A stretch of 64,000 nt of DNA from Rhyzopertha dominica (Eukaryota; Arthropoda; Insecta; Coleoptera; Bostrichidae). The notes under the pieces were generated by a model. It saw only the letters and a program-made list of their open reading frames with translations. It was not told the origin of the DNA and searched no databases. Made by a program: the position numbers and the translations under genes. The stretch's first letter is position 1. The number at the start of each line of letters is the position of its first letter. The stretch is from contig QCXZ01000001.1 in assembly GCA_025024175.1 (NCBI GenBank), forward strand, positions 35,148,942 to 35,212,941. Reading direction: 5' to 3'. Positions 12,590-18,015 of this stretch are shown here, piece after piece.

Positions 12590-13400
12590 AAAGAGTCTAC
12601 AATTTGGCCGCTGGACCTCTTTGAGGATATCCGAGCACACAAAGTATTTAGTTGCATAATCTGTCGATTGCCATAAATAAACGTCTTGGTGAAAACATTC
12701 CCCTTGTTCTTCACTGTAATCTCCAAGATTTATGGAGAATGGTCAATGTCGGAATATAAAAAATGAATTTTCAAACTATTGTTGCAACCTAAATATTTAT
12801 AACAGTTTAACATTTTTGACTGTTTTTGTAATTGGGATCTTTAACGTTGCCTAGAAATTTCGAGACATTTTGAAAGGAAACCAAGCTTTTTTGTTCTTAA
12901 CTTATCGTAACATTCTTAATTAATTGATTTTCTGATATCAGATCCTGTAAATATGCCCTCTTTTAACTTTGCATCAGGAAAACATAAACAGATAGATAAA
13001 AGTGTCTCTATCTTTTGTTAATGCCTTGACAAATTGTTTCATCAATCCAGGTTTAATGTGCTGTGGTGGAAGCAATATCTTCTCAGGATCCAACAAACTG
13101 GCATGAATAACATTTTTTTCCGACTTCCATTTTTTTCGAAACGACTAATCTGAAGTGTAAATCTTTTGCTATCCCGCTCGCAAATATAACATGGAAATTT
13201 TGTATAGCCTTGTTGTTGGCCAAGAAGCATCGCAACAAATTAGCCAATTGTGTTTAGTGTAATTTATTTTTGCCAAAACACTTTTTTAAGTTGGCATAAG
13301 TTTCTTTAAGTTGAACTGAATGTGCGACAGGTATTGATGCATATTTATTGCCATCAGCAGTTTTCAGGCTTCTTTTCGAAGAGTCTATAAATAGCCTCCA
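12590..13400 (-). pseudogene. C-terminal half of decayed uncharacterised arthropod multicopy protein
   Basis: On the minus strand from 13400 down, pieces in shifting frames read WRLFIDSSKRSLK, GNKYASIPVAHSVQLKETY, LLGQQQGYTKFPCYIC, LLPPQHIKPGLMKQFVKAL and NLGDYSEEQGECFHQD. I recognise this order from a family found in many copies in insect genomes and normally left uncharacterised. Its function is not established, and its copy number suggests a mobile-element origin. The reading is continuous with the N-terminal half at 17321-18015 once the insertion at 13401-17320 is removed. Several frameshifts and stops show that it is dead. Confidence 0.72.
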
Positions 13401-13409
13401 CACACAGAA

Positions 13410-13790
13410 AAATTATTACTTGGAATAACTAAATATTACTTAGTTCAAACAAATATTAAGTTTGTATATACGCAAACTTAAGATATCCTTAATTGGAAAT
13501 TATGAAATACTTGATATTGAAACAAATGTTTAATTGTTTGAAGAATTAAATACTTTAATTAAAAATTTCATTAGTTTCAAAACAGCCGCCGTAGTTTTCA
13601 TACAATTAGATTATGCTTTCATCTGAAATACGCAAATTCTTAATATGAAATAAATAACACTTGGATTAAGACTGTACTGTTTTTCCATCAAATATTTTAC
13701 TACTTTCGTATGAAATCAATCACTTTTAATCCAAGCTTGGGATATACTCAATCCTAATGTAAAGTATATTCAGATTAAAATAATATTCAG
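13410..13790. repeat. AT-rich subterminal region with short repeats
   Basis: Short motifs recur in both orientations: ATTAAGTTTG and GCAAACTTAAG, TACTTTAATTA, CTTAATTGGAAAT, ATTACTT. Subterminal repeat clusters of this kind are typical transposase-binding zones of DNA transposons. That role here is inferred. The matching right zone (about 16910-17300) contains GTTTGGAAAT twice. Confidence 0.4.
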
Positions 13791-13853
13791 CTTGAAACAC
13801 AGAATATTTTACTTACCACAAGAAGCGTTATTTTCTTGGTTGAAAAAAACGCA

Positions 13854-13996
13854 ATGGATCTGGAGATTCGAATCCGACCCGGCTCGGCTGAACCGAATTC
13901 GCGGGTATTATGAACAGATTATAACAAATGTGGAACATGTATGGCGAGTTTTATGTCCGAAATCAGAGCACATTACCGCAAATGTTGGAGGCAAAG
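13854..13996 (+). CDS. possible zinc-finger exon of a second gene in the element
   Basis: From ATG 13854 one frame reads MDLEIRIRPGSAEPN and, after an in-frame TGA, NKCGTCMASFMSEIRAHYRKC. The latter has the spacing C-x2-C-x10-H-x3-C of a small zinc finger. The frame ends at a fair splice donor, CAAAG|GTAGTC, and an acceptor TTTTTTACAG follows at about 14101-14110, but the frame does not continue cleanly beyond it. The exon lies inside the 13401-17320 element, on the opposite strand to its SAM-like gene. I did not recognise the protein, and the TGA makes this copy inactive if it is real. Confidence 0.28.
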
Positions 13997-14859
13997 GTAG
14001 TCCTAAACACTAGTACTTTAAATAATGTGAGAGCAAAAGTGCAGTTGATACAGTAAGTATATGTAGGTATGGAAGTGTTTAATATTTTAAAATAAAAATA
14101 TTTTTTACAGTTACTTGCAACAGCGGCACTAAAGCTAAACATTTTGAGAAATGGAAAGAAATACCAAGTAATATTCACTAAATAGAAGCGCAACCCCAGA
14201 AATATCAACTTTCGATTCACATGCGACTAAACAGGAAGAAAGAAGGCAATGGATTTGCACAGTGCAAAGTACATACACATTTGCAACTACTACACCTTTT
14301 TTAGGAATATTTCCGTTTCTCGATGTTAGTTAACTCTGTAATCATGACGTTGCCTTAAAATAAGTAGATTATTAAAGTATTATATTGTTTATTTATGTAC
14401 CTATTTAAGTAAGTAAATTATTTCTAAAAATGCCGAAGAAAATCCACATAACTGGGATTCAGTTAAATTATGCTATTACTATACTTTAATATTTTGTTCT
14501 GTTTGCTGGAATAACTTTTAATGTTATTGTTTTTACTATTGATGCACTATAATTGCTGTTCACTTTATGGGATACTGTAAGTAAGCTTATGTTTTGCTTG
14601 TGTGTTAATTATTTAATAAATAAATATTTTATTGTAGTTCTTGTTTCTTTTTCGATCAGAATAAAAATTGTGGTTAAAACATTAATTATTTATTTTGAAC
14701 TTAAACAACCCTGATTTATAATATACAACCAAGCTTTCAGAAAAATCTTATGCTAACTTTCTATATAATAAGGATGTTAACAATTATAACAAGGAAATCA
14801 AACTGTACAAAAATCTAGAGAACTGAAAAACATAATTTATTTTATTTATGATATTTACA

Positions 14860-16658
14860 AACTACTCTACTTTGGGGGATACAGTTTGTCAAAATCAAGA
14901 TTTATCTGCAAAAAATTTTCTGCAGTTAACACAAACATAGAAATTTGATTTGTTTTATACCAGGGTATATGCTCTAGGATTATTCAAGATGGGCCATTGT
15001 GAAATAATTTCGAACACTGTACCGAAATCGGATAAAGTTTGCTTTCTTCTTAAGGAGAATGTTGCTTGCCACTTACTGATCACTTCTGTCCGTAGTTCAT
15101 TTCTGGCACGCAGCCATAAAACATCTTCTTGCACATTTTCTACAATAAGATACAAACAAAGTAATATAAAGTTAAATTGCAAGCACTCAAAATTAATAAT
15201 TATTGCATTGGGATAATGTAATACTACATGTATACGAGTACAAATGATTTTTAATAACACTGGCTACTAAAAAAGTTTGTATAAATATCAAAAGCTGTTA
15301 TATCATTCCTATTATTTGATTTAAGTCGATATTAGCTGAATAAATAAAACCAGATAACCATAACGATGCGTTAAGGTAAGGTAAGAGATTAGTTTAGAAT
15401 TTAACTACAGAGATGAGATATTAGCTTTACGTGAAGAATAAGAACTGGCACTAAGCAATAAAAATTCCTCGTTTACATAATGACTTCCTTAGTTGGTTTA
15501 GGTTGTTTCGTAATTGTGACGCTTGTTCTTGATATATGTTTTGTACCTTTGATGTTTTGAGGTAAAAAATTCAACACTGTTTATATTTCTTTTAGTGTGT
15601 AGTACGTGAGACTGCAATTTTTATGAAAAAAATATATACTTATGTTCAACTTCATTTGAAGTGTCCTCATCTTCGAATTCGTTTATGCTTTTCCTTAATC
15701 CTTGAGCTTCTCCTGATTTATATAATAAGTTTCTGCACTAATCCACCAGTCAACCTTTAGTTAGAATGGGACGTCCAGTTGGTGATTTACATTTACTTAC
15801 AGCTGGCAGTGTTTCAAACGACTGAAAATTTGAAACATACAGAATCTGTTAATATTCATAAAACTAAACTTACTGTTTGATTATAAAATCCATGTTCTGC
15901 ATAATAATTGATAATTGTGTTGCCTAGAGCACTTTGTTCAAGTAAGTGTTGCAGTTCAAAGTCGGGAAACACTACAACACTATTTAGGAAGTCTTTCATT
16001 CCTACGAAGGATACTTCTCGATTTTCCTGTGGTATGAGGTATGTTTCGGCATGACTTGAACTAGTCTCACTTAGGCTGTCAGTCGAGCTAGTATTGTTTG
16101 CTACATCAGTGCAAGCGACAAGTTTCTACAAAGTAAATTTGAGAAAATGATAAAACGGTACAATCATTTTAATTACCGTAATTTCATTGCTTCTCCGAAT
16201 TCCTTCTAAAACTGGAATTCTGGCACCTACGCTTGGAATTAACTCCTTAAGCAATTCGTTGTCAAGCTTTCATTTATTCTCTATGCCGATTTCATTTTCT
16301 AAAACATAAATTGAGCGTTTAATGCTTTGTTTCCTTAGTACTGAAACTTAAAATTTGCCTGACATACCACATACTCTAACAATATAAAACTAAAACTAGT
16401 TCTATATGCAAATGAACCTCTTCAGCTTTTTACAGATAGTGACCTAAGTATTCCAAAAACACACATAAGTAATAGGATATAGTTTTTAGCAAAATCTAAT
16501 ATGTACTTAGAATCTAGCAGGTGTACACCTGCCGCTACTATTTGGTGTGTTGTAATACAATGGTAAAAGCTTGCTTGACACATTAGGTACATACCTATAA
16601 ACGACTTGATTATTTCTTCGTTACAAACCCAGTCCAATAGTAGGTCCCTAATATCCAT
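14860..16658 (-). pseudogene. spliced SAM-like (SAMD3-like) gene carried by the element
   Basis: Six minus-strand exons are proposed from frame and splice sites: 16595-16658 (ATG 16658, MDIRDLLLDWV), 16177-16298, 15874-16125, about 15640-15821, 14961-15139 and about 14860-14905. Donors such as ATAG|GTATGT and ACA|GTAAGT and acceptors such as TTTATGTTTTAG and TTTACTTTGTAG are good. Introns 2, 3 and 5 are 51-55 bases. Reading phase is kept across exons 1-4 and 5-6. Exons 1-2 resemble a SAM domain (LDNELLKELIPSVGAR). Exon 5 (WLRARNELRTEVISKWQATF, then ISQWPILNNPRAYTL) continues in exon 6 as INLDFDKLYP. This is the order in multicopy SAMD3-like proteins. Stops lie in exon 2 (TGA) and exon 4 (TGA, TAG), and the exon 4/5 phase does not match. 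The copy is therefore a pseudogene or the model is incomplete. An upstream ATG at 16694 is possible. Confidence 0.6.
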
Positions 16659-16699
16659 GTCCTCGATTGACAAATGGAGAAACGAATAAGTCAAACTAA

Positions 16700-16910
16700 T
16701 CGCTGATCACACTAATCCTTATCACTAAACAACACTAAACACTGATCACCAGCTAAAGCTAACCAGCCAACACAGCACCCAACCGACGCACCGACGCTGT
16801 GAAATCCCGCGTTTTCTATCAGCAGGTGGCACAAGACGTAAACCAATAACAGACTGCTTTTGAGGTCACGTGACAGGTATCCGAACACTGCAGTGTTTTG
16901 AAACAAGAAT
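16700..16910 (-). promoter_or_regulatory. GC-richer presumed promoter of the element's SAM-like gene
   Basis: The 200 bases upstream of ATG 16658 are clearly less AT-rich than the surroundings (CCAACCGACGCACCGACG, GAGGTCACGTGACAGG with an E-box-like CACGTG). Position suggests the promoter/5' leader. No TATA box was identified. Confidence 0.3.
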
Positions 16911-17320
16911 GATGTAGTTTATTTTAAAGCATTATACATATTAACTGAAGAAGTGTATTTTTCAGTTTATGAAAATCTGTTACTTACTTTACGACATTAT
17001 ATTATCAGATTAAAGCAAATACGTTTGAGGCAAATTTACAAATTCTTGACATAAAATTTGACATGTTCTTCTGTCAAATATACTTTAGGATATTGTTTGG
17101 AAATCAGTTTGTTTTTAAATCAAATAAACAATTATATTGGATTAAATAATAATAACGTTGTTTGGAAATTTTATTGAAACAAATTAATTTCTTCTGTTAA
17201 GAAAATGCATAATTTCAAGGCAAAAGTATTTGTTCAGATAAAGTAAATGGGTTATTTCGTTTAAATAAATAACACCGAGTAAATCGGTTTGTTCATTCTG
17301 AGAAATTATTTCTATGTGTG

Positions 17321-18015
17321 CATTCTTGTGTTTTGTACTCAATGCCAAATTTATGTACCAGACCGTCAACATCACAGCAGAAAACCAAGTTTTCCTCTTT
17401 TCTAAAGTAGTGCACGAATTCTTTATCACGTCTTCGATACCAATAAAATGTATCAAAGTCTAACAAATTTTTATTAGATGAGAGCCTCTGGCTAATCCAA
17501 CATCTGGTACCAAATCATTAAGTTTTTTTTGTTTAAATGGTTGAGGCTCAATCACATCAGGATAAACATTTCACCGTTGCTGGGAAAATCATCACATTCT
17601 GAATTTTGGCGAGATACAGTCGAATCTAAGCTTACATTTTTATTAAAAATGGGAATTGGTAATTCAGGTCTAGGTATAATCGGCTTTGTAACCGATGAAA
17701 CATTAGGATAGACGATCTTGTGACGGTTTTTAGAGTTATATGTCGTTATATTGCTCAAACAAAAATAGCAATCATTAGTATGATTTGTTTGCTCCCGCCA
17801 CATCATAGAATTTCCAAATGGCAATGAGTCCATTGTCTCATTGTTGCAATGCAAAACCAACATGCTTTATGTGGTACCCACTGTTTACCTTGTTGTTCTA
17901 ACTCTAACCGAATTCCGAAGTACGCGAAATAAGAATTTTTACCAGGTCTGTTTTATTTCTTCTTTGTTCCACTAAGGTATGTTGTCCACATATATAACAA
18001 AAAACATCGGGACTA
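17321..18015 (-). pseudogene. N-terminal half of decayed uncharacterised arthropod multicopy protein
   Basis: From about 18015 down, the minus strand encodes PDVFCYICGQHTLVEQRRNK, with a C-x2-C pair near the N-terminus. In another frame come LPFGNSMMWREQTNHTNDCY and SKNRHKIVYPNVSSV, then ELPIPIF. Last comes EENLVFCCDVDGLVHKFGIE, ending at YKTQE exactly where the 13401-17320 element begins. These blocks and their order match the N-terminal half of the family whose C-terminal half lies at 12590-13400. Frameshifts separate most blocks. A zinc-binding role for the cysteines is inference. Confidence 0.7.

Follow-up and report, generated by a model that had tools for sequence, protein, structure and literature searches.

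Three groups of described transposons come closest to the element reported here. CACTA/EnSpm (CMC) transposons of the plant type have ends that begin with CAC and make a target duplication of 2-3 bp, and a 2-bp target duplication is also reported for animal TRC elements, which belong to the CACTA superfamily (PMC1636069, PMC4298943). Pack-TIR or Pack-TYPE elements are non-autonomous TIR elements that bear a gene; a metazoan survey reports that none was identified in birds and insects, and treats Ssk-FB4 in Drosophila as a Pack-MULE (PMC8277862). Tc1/mariner elements, the third group, make a 2-bp duplication that is TA only.

The element shares the initial CAC with CACTA/EnSpm, together with a 2-bp duplication (CA at one site and TA at another), but its ends read CACACA rather than CACTA or the CCC of animal members, its inverted repeats are long and imperfect, and no Transposase_21 gene was seen in the element frames scanned. 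On the grounds of its terminal motif and of the failure to find a Transposase_21 gene, we do not place it with CACTA. It resembles the Pack-TIRs in being a TIR element with a gene inside, but only distant paralogs and no parental copy of that gene were found, and the gene, with five recognisable exons and its upstream region, was associated with the element before the two exact copies arose. As in Tc1/mariner, the duplication is of 2 bp, and TA is found at the second exact copy and before four of seven related ends; however, it is CA at the copy described first, and a DDE family that is abundant here, presumably IS630/Tc1-like, has another end.

Borders of the insertion and the interrupted gene

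The window analysed is a stretch of 64,000 nucleotides (G000:C1:35148942-35212941), and the genome searched comprises 479 Mb in 138 contigs. The comparisons confirmed that positions 13401-17320 of the window are a base-exact insertion of a TIR transposon of 3,920 bp, flanked by a 2-bp CA target-site duplication at 13399-13400 (left copy) and 17321-17322 (right copy), all three features being unstranded. These borders rest on empty sites (eight of eight examined) and on a second copy with the same ends on contig C86. The outermost letters of the element are CACACAGAAAA at 13401 and CTATGTGTG at 17320; its left edge starts CACACAGAAAAATTATTACTTGGAAT and its right edge finishes with ATTCTGAGAAATTATTTCTATGTGTG. 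Joining both flanks through one CA gives the reconstructed empty site CCTCCA/TTCTTG. A search with the right flank gave at least 48 matches, corresponding to at least 40 loci including the window (40 scored of 68 first-look candidates). Besides the window, at least 15 matches begin at the junction base, and eight of 15 were taken for empty-site alignment. All eight, which are paralogs of the interrupted gene, are gapless at the junction and have a single CA there (CA/TTC), with variable surrounding sequence and, in some of the eight, minor gaps near the junction. The precise insertion and its target-site duplication are those of a cut-and-paste TIR DNA transposon.

The interrupted gene lies on the minus strand, its 3' part (WRLFIDSSKRSLK...) at 12900-13398, from the flank alignment, and its 5' part at 17323-17900, from the right-flank search; the outer border of neither part is fixed. 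The initial annotation had proposed that removal of the element with one CA would rejoin this gene, that the borders and the duplication were exact to the base, and that EWR would be rebuilt across the junction. The borders and the duplication were borne out: the eight sites have the predicted form, the same two end bases limit the C86 copy, and a frame with EWRLFI or EWSLFI spans the junction in four of the eight paralogs (L062, L064, L066 and L068), as in STKQEWRLFIDSSKRSLEAV at L064. The interrupted gene is itself one of at least 40 family loci found, with a EWRLFIDSSKRSLKAVLLH-type motif, and its window copy also contains other stops.

Copies of the element

When the genome was probed with the left 500 bp of the element, only two segments were found besides the window, C86:13242741-13243094 and C86:13264703-13264860, which belong to a single copy. 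In local alignment, homology of this C86 copy begins at 13400/13401 (one flank base extra) and ends at 17320, and the copy is flanked by TA...TA, in contrast to CA...CA at the window copy. Identity is 98% over the left 355 bp, and 69 of 3,555 sites differ in the remainder, gaps aside, so that the full-span copies diverge by about 2% overall. The same borders at two sites with differing duplications argue for transposition rather than for copying of flanking sequence. Neither homology running past the borders nor ends unique to this site, either of which would speak against an element, was seen: the C86 copy stops identically and related ends occur elsewhere.

A relative on contig C136 (L012), 84% identical, has the same right end and the gene. 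It has in common with the window the right end and the sequence that precedes the ATG of the gene (16660-17320, minus strand), in which 84 of 638 sites differ (13%), and part of this right-end region (16782-17306, minus strand) also aligns with a further locus, L013. Since right end, upstream region and gene occur together in a relative at 84% identity, their association is older than the split from the C136 copy. The support that the initial annotation looked for, numerous copies that share both ends and enclose the same gene, did not materialise; the census stands at two with both ends, one more with the right end and the gene, and one more with the right-end region only.

Other mobile sequences lie close to these copies. 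The C86 copy is split by a nested insertion of 21.6 kb (G000:C86:13243095-13264706; L004-L006), both ends of which are AGTAGTATAGATAGACCG, with AGT...ACT termini and a 6-bp CAATCC duplication. By eye, its frames resemble a phospholipase-like capsid gene as well as a packaging ATPase, and we take it to be Polinton/Maverick-like, presumably with Gypsy-like and Tigger-like frames inside. Beside the C136 relative, at about 1-5240 of L012, lies what looks by eye like a BEL/Pao-like retrotransposon, which has an LTR.

Terminal inverted repeats and related ends

As aligned, the left inverted repeat occupies 13401-13570 (plus strand), with its core CACACAGAAAAATTATTACTTGGAAT at 13401-13426, and the right one 17165-17320 (minus strand), with the core CACACATAGAAATAATTTCTCAGAAT at 17295-17320. 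They are imperfect, 156-170 bp long as aligned, and their first letters are CACACA. The end-to-end inverted alignment scores 71, compared with a maximum of 56 in up to 300 random window pairs, which bears out the imperfect inverted ends of CACACA type reported initially. A 26-base end motif built from both ends had no third match in the window at three or fewer mismatches, the chance expectation being 0.02.

A motif made of the positions common to both ends gave 52 matches at two or fewer mismatches, as opposed to 13 for the reversed control. One identical CACACGT... sequence accounts for 21 of them; the other 31 are the four ends of the exact copies, one end of the C136 relative, seven that we examined and 19 remaining. 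The 21 identical matches were not taken as independent insertions, since the five that we read (L070, L071 and L079-L081) have an additional 60-bp flank in common, which indicates that an element end lies within a larger amplified repeat. In this repeat the CACACGT end follows the constant 60-bp flank.

The seven further loci looked alike and were picked by their first 26 bases. In 21 pairwise comparisons their flanks reached at most 34, against a control maximum of 35, a resemblance at chance level; their insides beyond 26 bases exceed the control maximum in 20 of 21 pairs. The seven are thus separate insertions of a single end family, or its one-ended remnants. The dinucleotides before the seven are TA, TA, TG, TA, TA, AT and GG. 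Compared with the right end of the window element, the amplified repeat at L070 scored 130 against a maximum of 83 in 375 controls, and, with the first 26 bases left aside, 106 against a maximum of 84. For four of the seven loci the right-end match beyond 26 bases was equalled by at most one of 400 controls; for the remaining three, 12, 27 and 209 of 400 controls were as good. The left-end match was borderline in every test: for L070, one of 369 controls was as good (16 of 370 beyond 26 bases), and for the seven loci between 3 and 72 of 400, some of these controls overlapping the element itself. The element thus likely belongs to a wider clan of related ends, to judge from sequence similarity, with a right-end link that is clear for some loci and weak for others.

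Two loci with such ends, L082 and L083, are alike at 84% over about 640 bp from the end, and match the larger repeat at 76-78% over 360 bp. In the 4.5 kb read of each, no opposite end was found, and the CACAC loci may therefore be one-ended remnants. Nor was any SAM-like exon seen near the related ends beyond chance-level matches (best E=0.023, at L070). A frame of 98 amino acids at L083:2-295, 4.2-4.5 kb from the CACAC end, resembles by eye a mariner-type transposase C-terminus, without Pfam support.

Structure of the SAM-like gene

Just inside the right end the element carries, on the minus strand, a gene with five predicted exons, whose borders were placed by eye from reading frames and splice-like sites. 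Exon 1 (MDIRDLLLDWVCNEEIIKSFI) lies at 16597-16659 with a donor at about 16596; exon 2 (16179-16303) completes the SAM-like domain; exon 3 (15878-16122) ends in FELQHLLEQSALGNTIINYYAEHGFYNQ; exon 4 is at 15645-15821; and exon 5 (14958-15146) reads VQEDVLWLRARNE...ISKWQATF...GTVFEIISQWPILNNPRAYTLV and closes with a TAA stop. The SAM-like sequence results from in-frame splicing of exons 1 and 2.

A profile built from five related SAM-like pieces matched the SAM domains of four proteins, Bicaudal C (4rqm; E=2.8e-4), ANKS6 (0.013), ANKS4B (0.014) and Shank2 (0.054), a similarity that places the predicted protein in the SAM domain family. Designed armadillo repeats, which occupied the top rows of the profile search, were set aside as short matches with no stretch passing alone. 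Unlike these SAM domain proteins, the protein predicted from the window found no counterpart in Pfam at E<=10, and the element frames scanned likewise gave no match; SAM_1 (E=0.031) and DUF4769 (E=0.0027) were each reached from one of the five pieces, both below the cut-off. Two composite SAM-like sequences, compared with protein databases, gave no hit at E<=0.01 among 340 and 472 candidates, and no paper on SAM-like transposons was found among the open-licence papers searched.

The last exon has three close copies in this genome. More distant paralogs with the same last exon are L028, the exons of which have the same architecture and are open by eye, and the less well supported L029; L030 has a SAM-like part. 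The multicopy family of the initial annotation therefore depends on these distant relatives, the close last-exon copies numbering three.

Decay of the gene

The spliced SAM-like gene described initially is recognisable in that exons 1 and 2 join in frame, but the window copy is broken, with a TGA in exon 2 and a TGA and a TAG in exon 4. In the C86 copy the only stop in the translated parts is the exon 4 TAG, in common with the window, and its exon 2 is open. The C136 copy has no stop at any of these points, but its exon 3 is missing and its exon 4 contains an indel. With exon 3 excluded, pN/pS was 0.067/0.090 for window and C136 copies (9 synonymous changes), 0.060/0.079 for C86 and C136 copies (8 synonymous changes) and 0.025/0.010 for window and C86 copies (1 synonymous change), values which suggest little protein-level constraint between the copies. 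Between the window and the C136 copy, 40 of 540 exon sites differ, compared with 86 of 778 intron sites (summed); the lower exon divergence hints at past selection on the gene.

Because the TAG is common to both exact copies and the C136 copy is open there, the most economical interpretation is that the two exact copies descend from a progenitor that no longer had an intact gene at the time of its move. If so, the SAM-like protein would not have been the mover, and another protein would have moved the element. As a caveat, the TAG could have spread between the copies by gene conversion, which is conceivable because of an identical block at 14023-14625 (plus strand): all 603 aligned sites are the same in both exact copies, which are otherwise about 2% apart, and an identical run of this length was reached in one of 20,000 shuffles. 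The block holds a possible spliced ORF with AATAAA at 14615, perhaps a convergent plus-strand gene, for which the donor CAG/GTAAGT is present only in the C86 copy.

Mobilization of the element

A fragment of a DDE transposase gene in L013 (7110-7301), without a Pfam match, adjoins the common upstream region and was considered as an autonomous partner; it was rejected, because the end of its family is GTATAGTAATGCAACTC. This family, which we presume to be IS630/Tc1-like, is very abundant (at least 150 matches scored of 1,720 first-look candidates). Among 29 of its loci, none matches the right-end region of the window element, and a single one aligns with the left half, over 43 bases (E=0.008).

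No transposase was identified in the element, nor in 4.5 kb of L082 and L083. The explanation that we consider probable is that the element moved non-autonomously by means of a transposase acting in trans, with the SAM-like gene as a passenger or helper and not the mover. On this account a cut-and-paste DNA element with imperfect CACAC inverted repeats, a 2-bp duplication and no strict target carries a spliced gene of the SAM-domain family with its upstream region just inside the right end. A transposase supplied in trans, perhaps from a relative with CACAC-type ends, would mobilize it, and the SAM-like gene would be a long-standing passenger or helper, not the enzyme behind these copies. Of the two readings offered by the initial annotation, the one in which an element bears the gene, or has captured it, is thus favoured, whereas the gene as motor of these copies is unsupported in view of the common nonsense codon, though it may have that role in the lineage.

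We think it unlikely that the SAM-like protein belongs to the machinery that mobilizes a new element lineage, the exact copies being decayed members moved by intact sisters. Gene, upstream region and right end have remained linked over 13% divergence, the exon and intron differences between the window and the C136 copy point the same way, and so do the open exons of L028; but no intact gene was seen within an element bearing these ends, and a simple scan around the three distant paralogs for inverted ends with a 2-bp duplication gave scores of 11 (L028), 12 (L029) and 27 (L030), compared with 16 for the window, on a scale with no shuffled control. To our knowledge, SAM domains are protein- or RNA-binding modules, not recombinases. 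About as unlikely to us is a recent Pack-type capture of a host SAM-like gene by a non-autonomous element. Pack-TIRs with captured sequence do exist in metazoans (PMC8277862), and distant SAM-like paralogs lie outside any element detected here. Against such a capture, no close parental copy was found: probes 13401-13900, 13755-14800 and 16821-17320 match only the copies described above, and exon-level protein searches found no close match beyond the three known copies. The C136 relative, moreover, shows that the association is not new, which argues against capture in the very recent past and would be compatible with a helper role. Segmental duplication or ectopic recombination in place of transposition, which the small family and the interruption of the C86 copy by another insertion might recall, we regard as highly improbable in the face of two sites with identical borders, different 2-bp duplications and inverted ends, and of eight clean empty sites for the window copy.

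Exact borders have been fixed for an element bearing an unclassified SAM-like gene, which automatic annotation could call a host gene, and the end sequences can be used to hunt for the transposase and to ask about mobility of the family elsewhere. We give only a small chance to the larger proposal of a previously undescribed animal transposon lineage, marked by CACAC ends and a 2-bp duplication, whose SAM-domain protein would be a functional helper or DNA-end assembly factor; if the protein were indeed a functional element gene, this would account for the multiple copies of such genes and for their lack of a classification.

At L030, an inverted repeat of about 48 bp, at 2593 and 6483 and with GC on both outer sides, brackets the distant SAM-like paralog; with a third arm nearby, it looks like a dispersed repeat.
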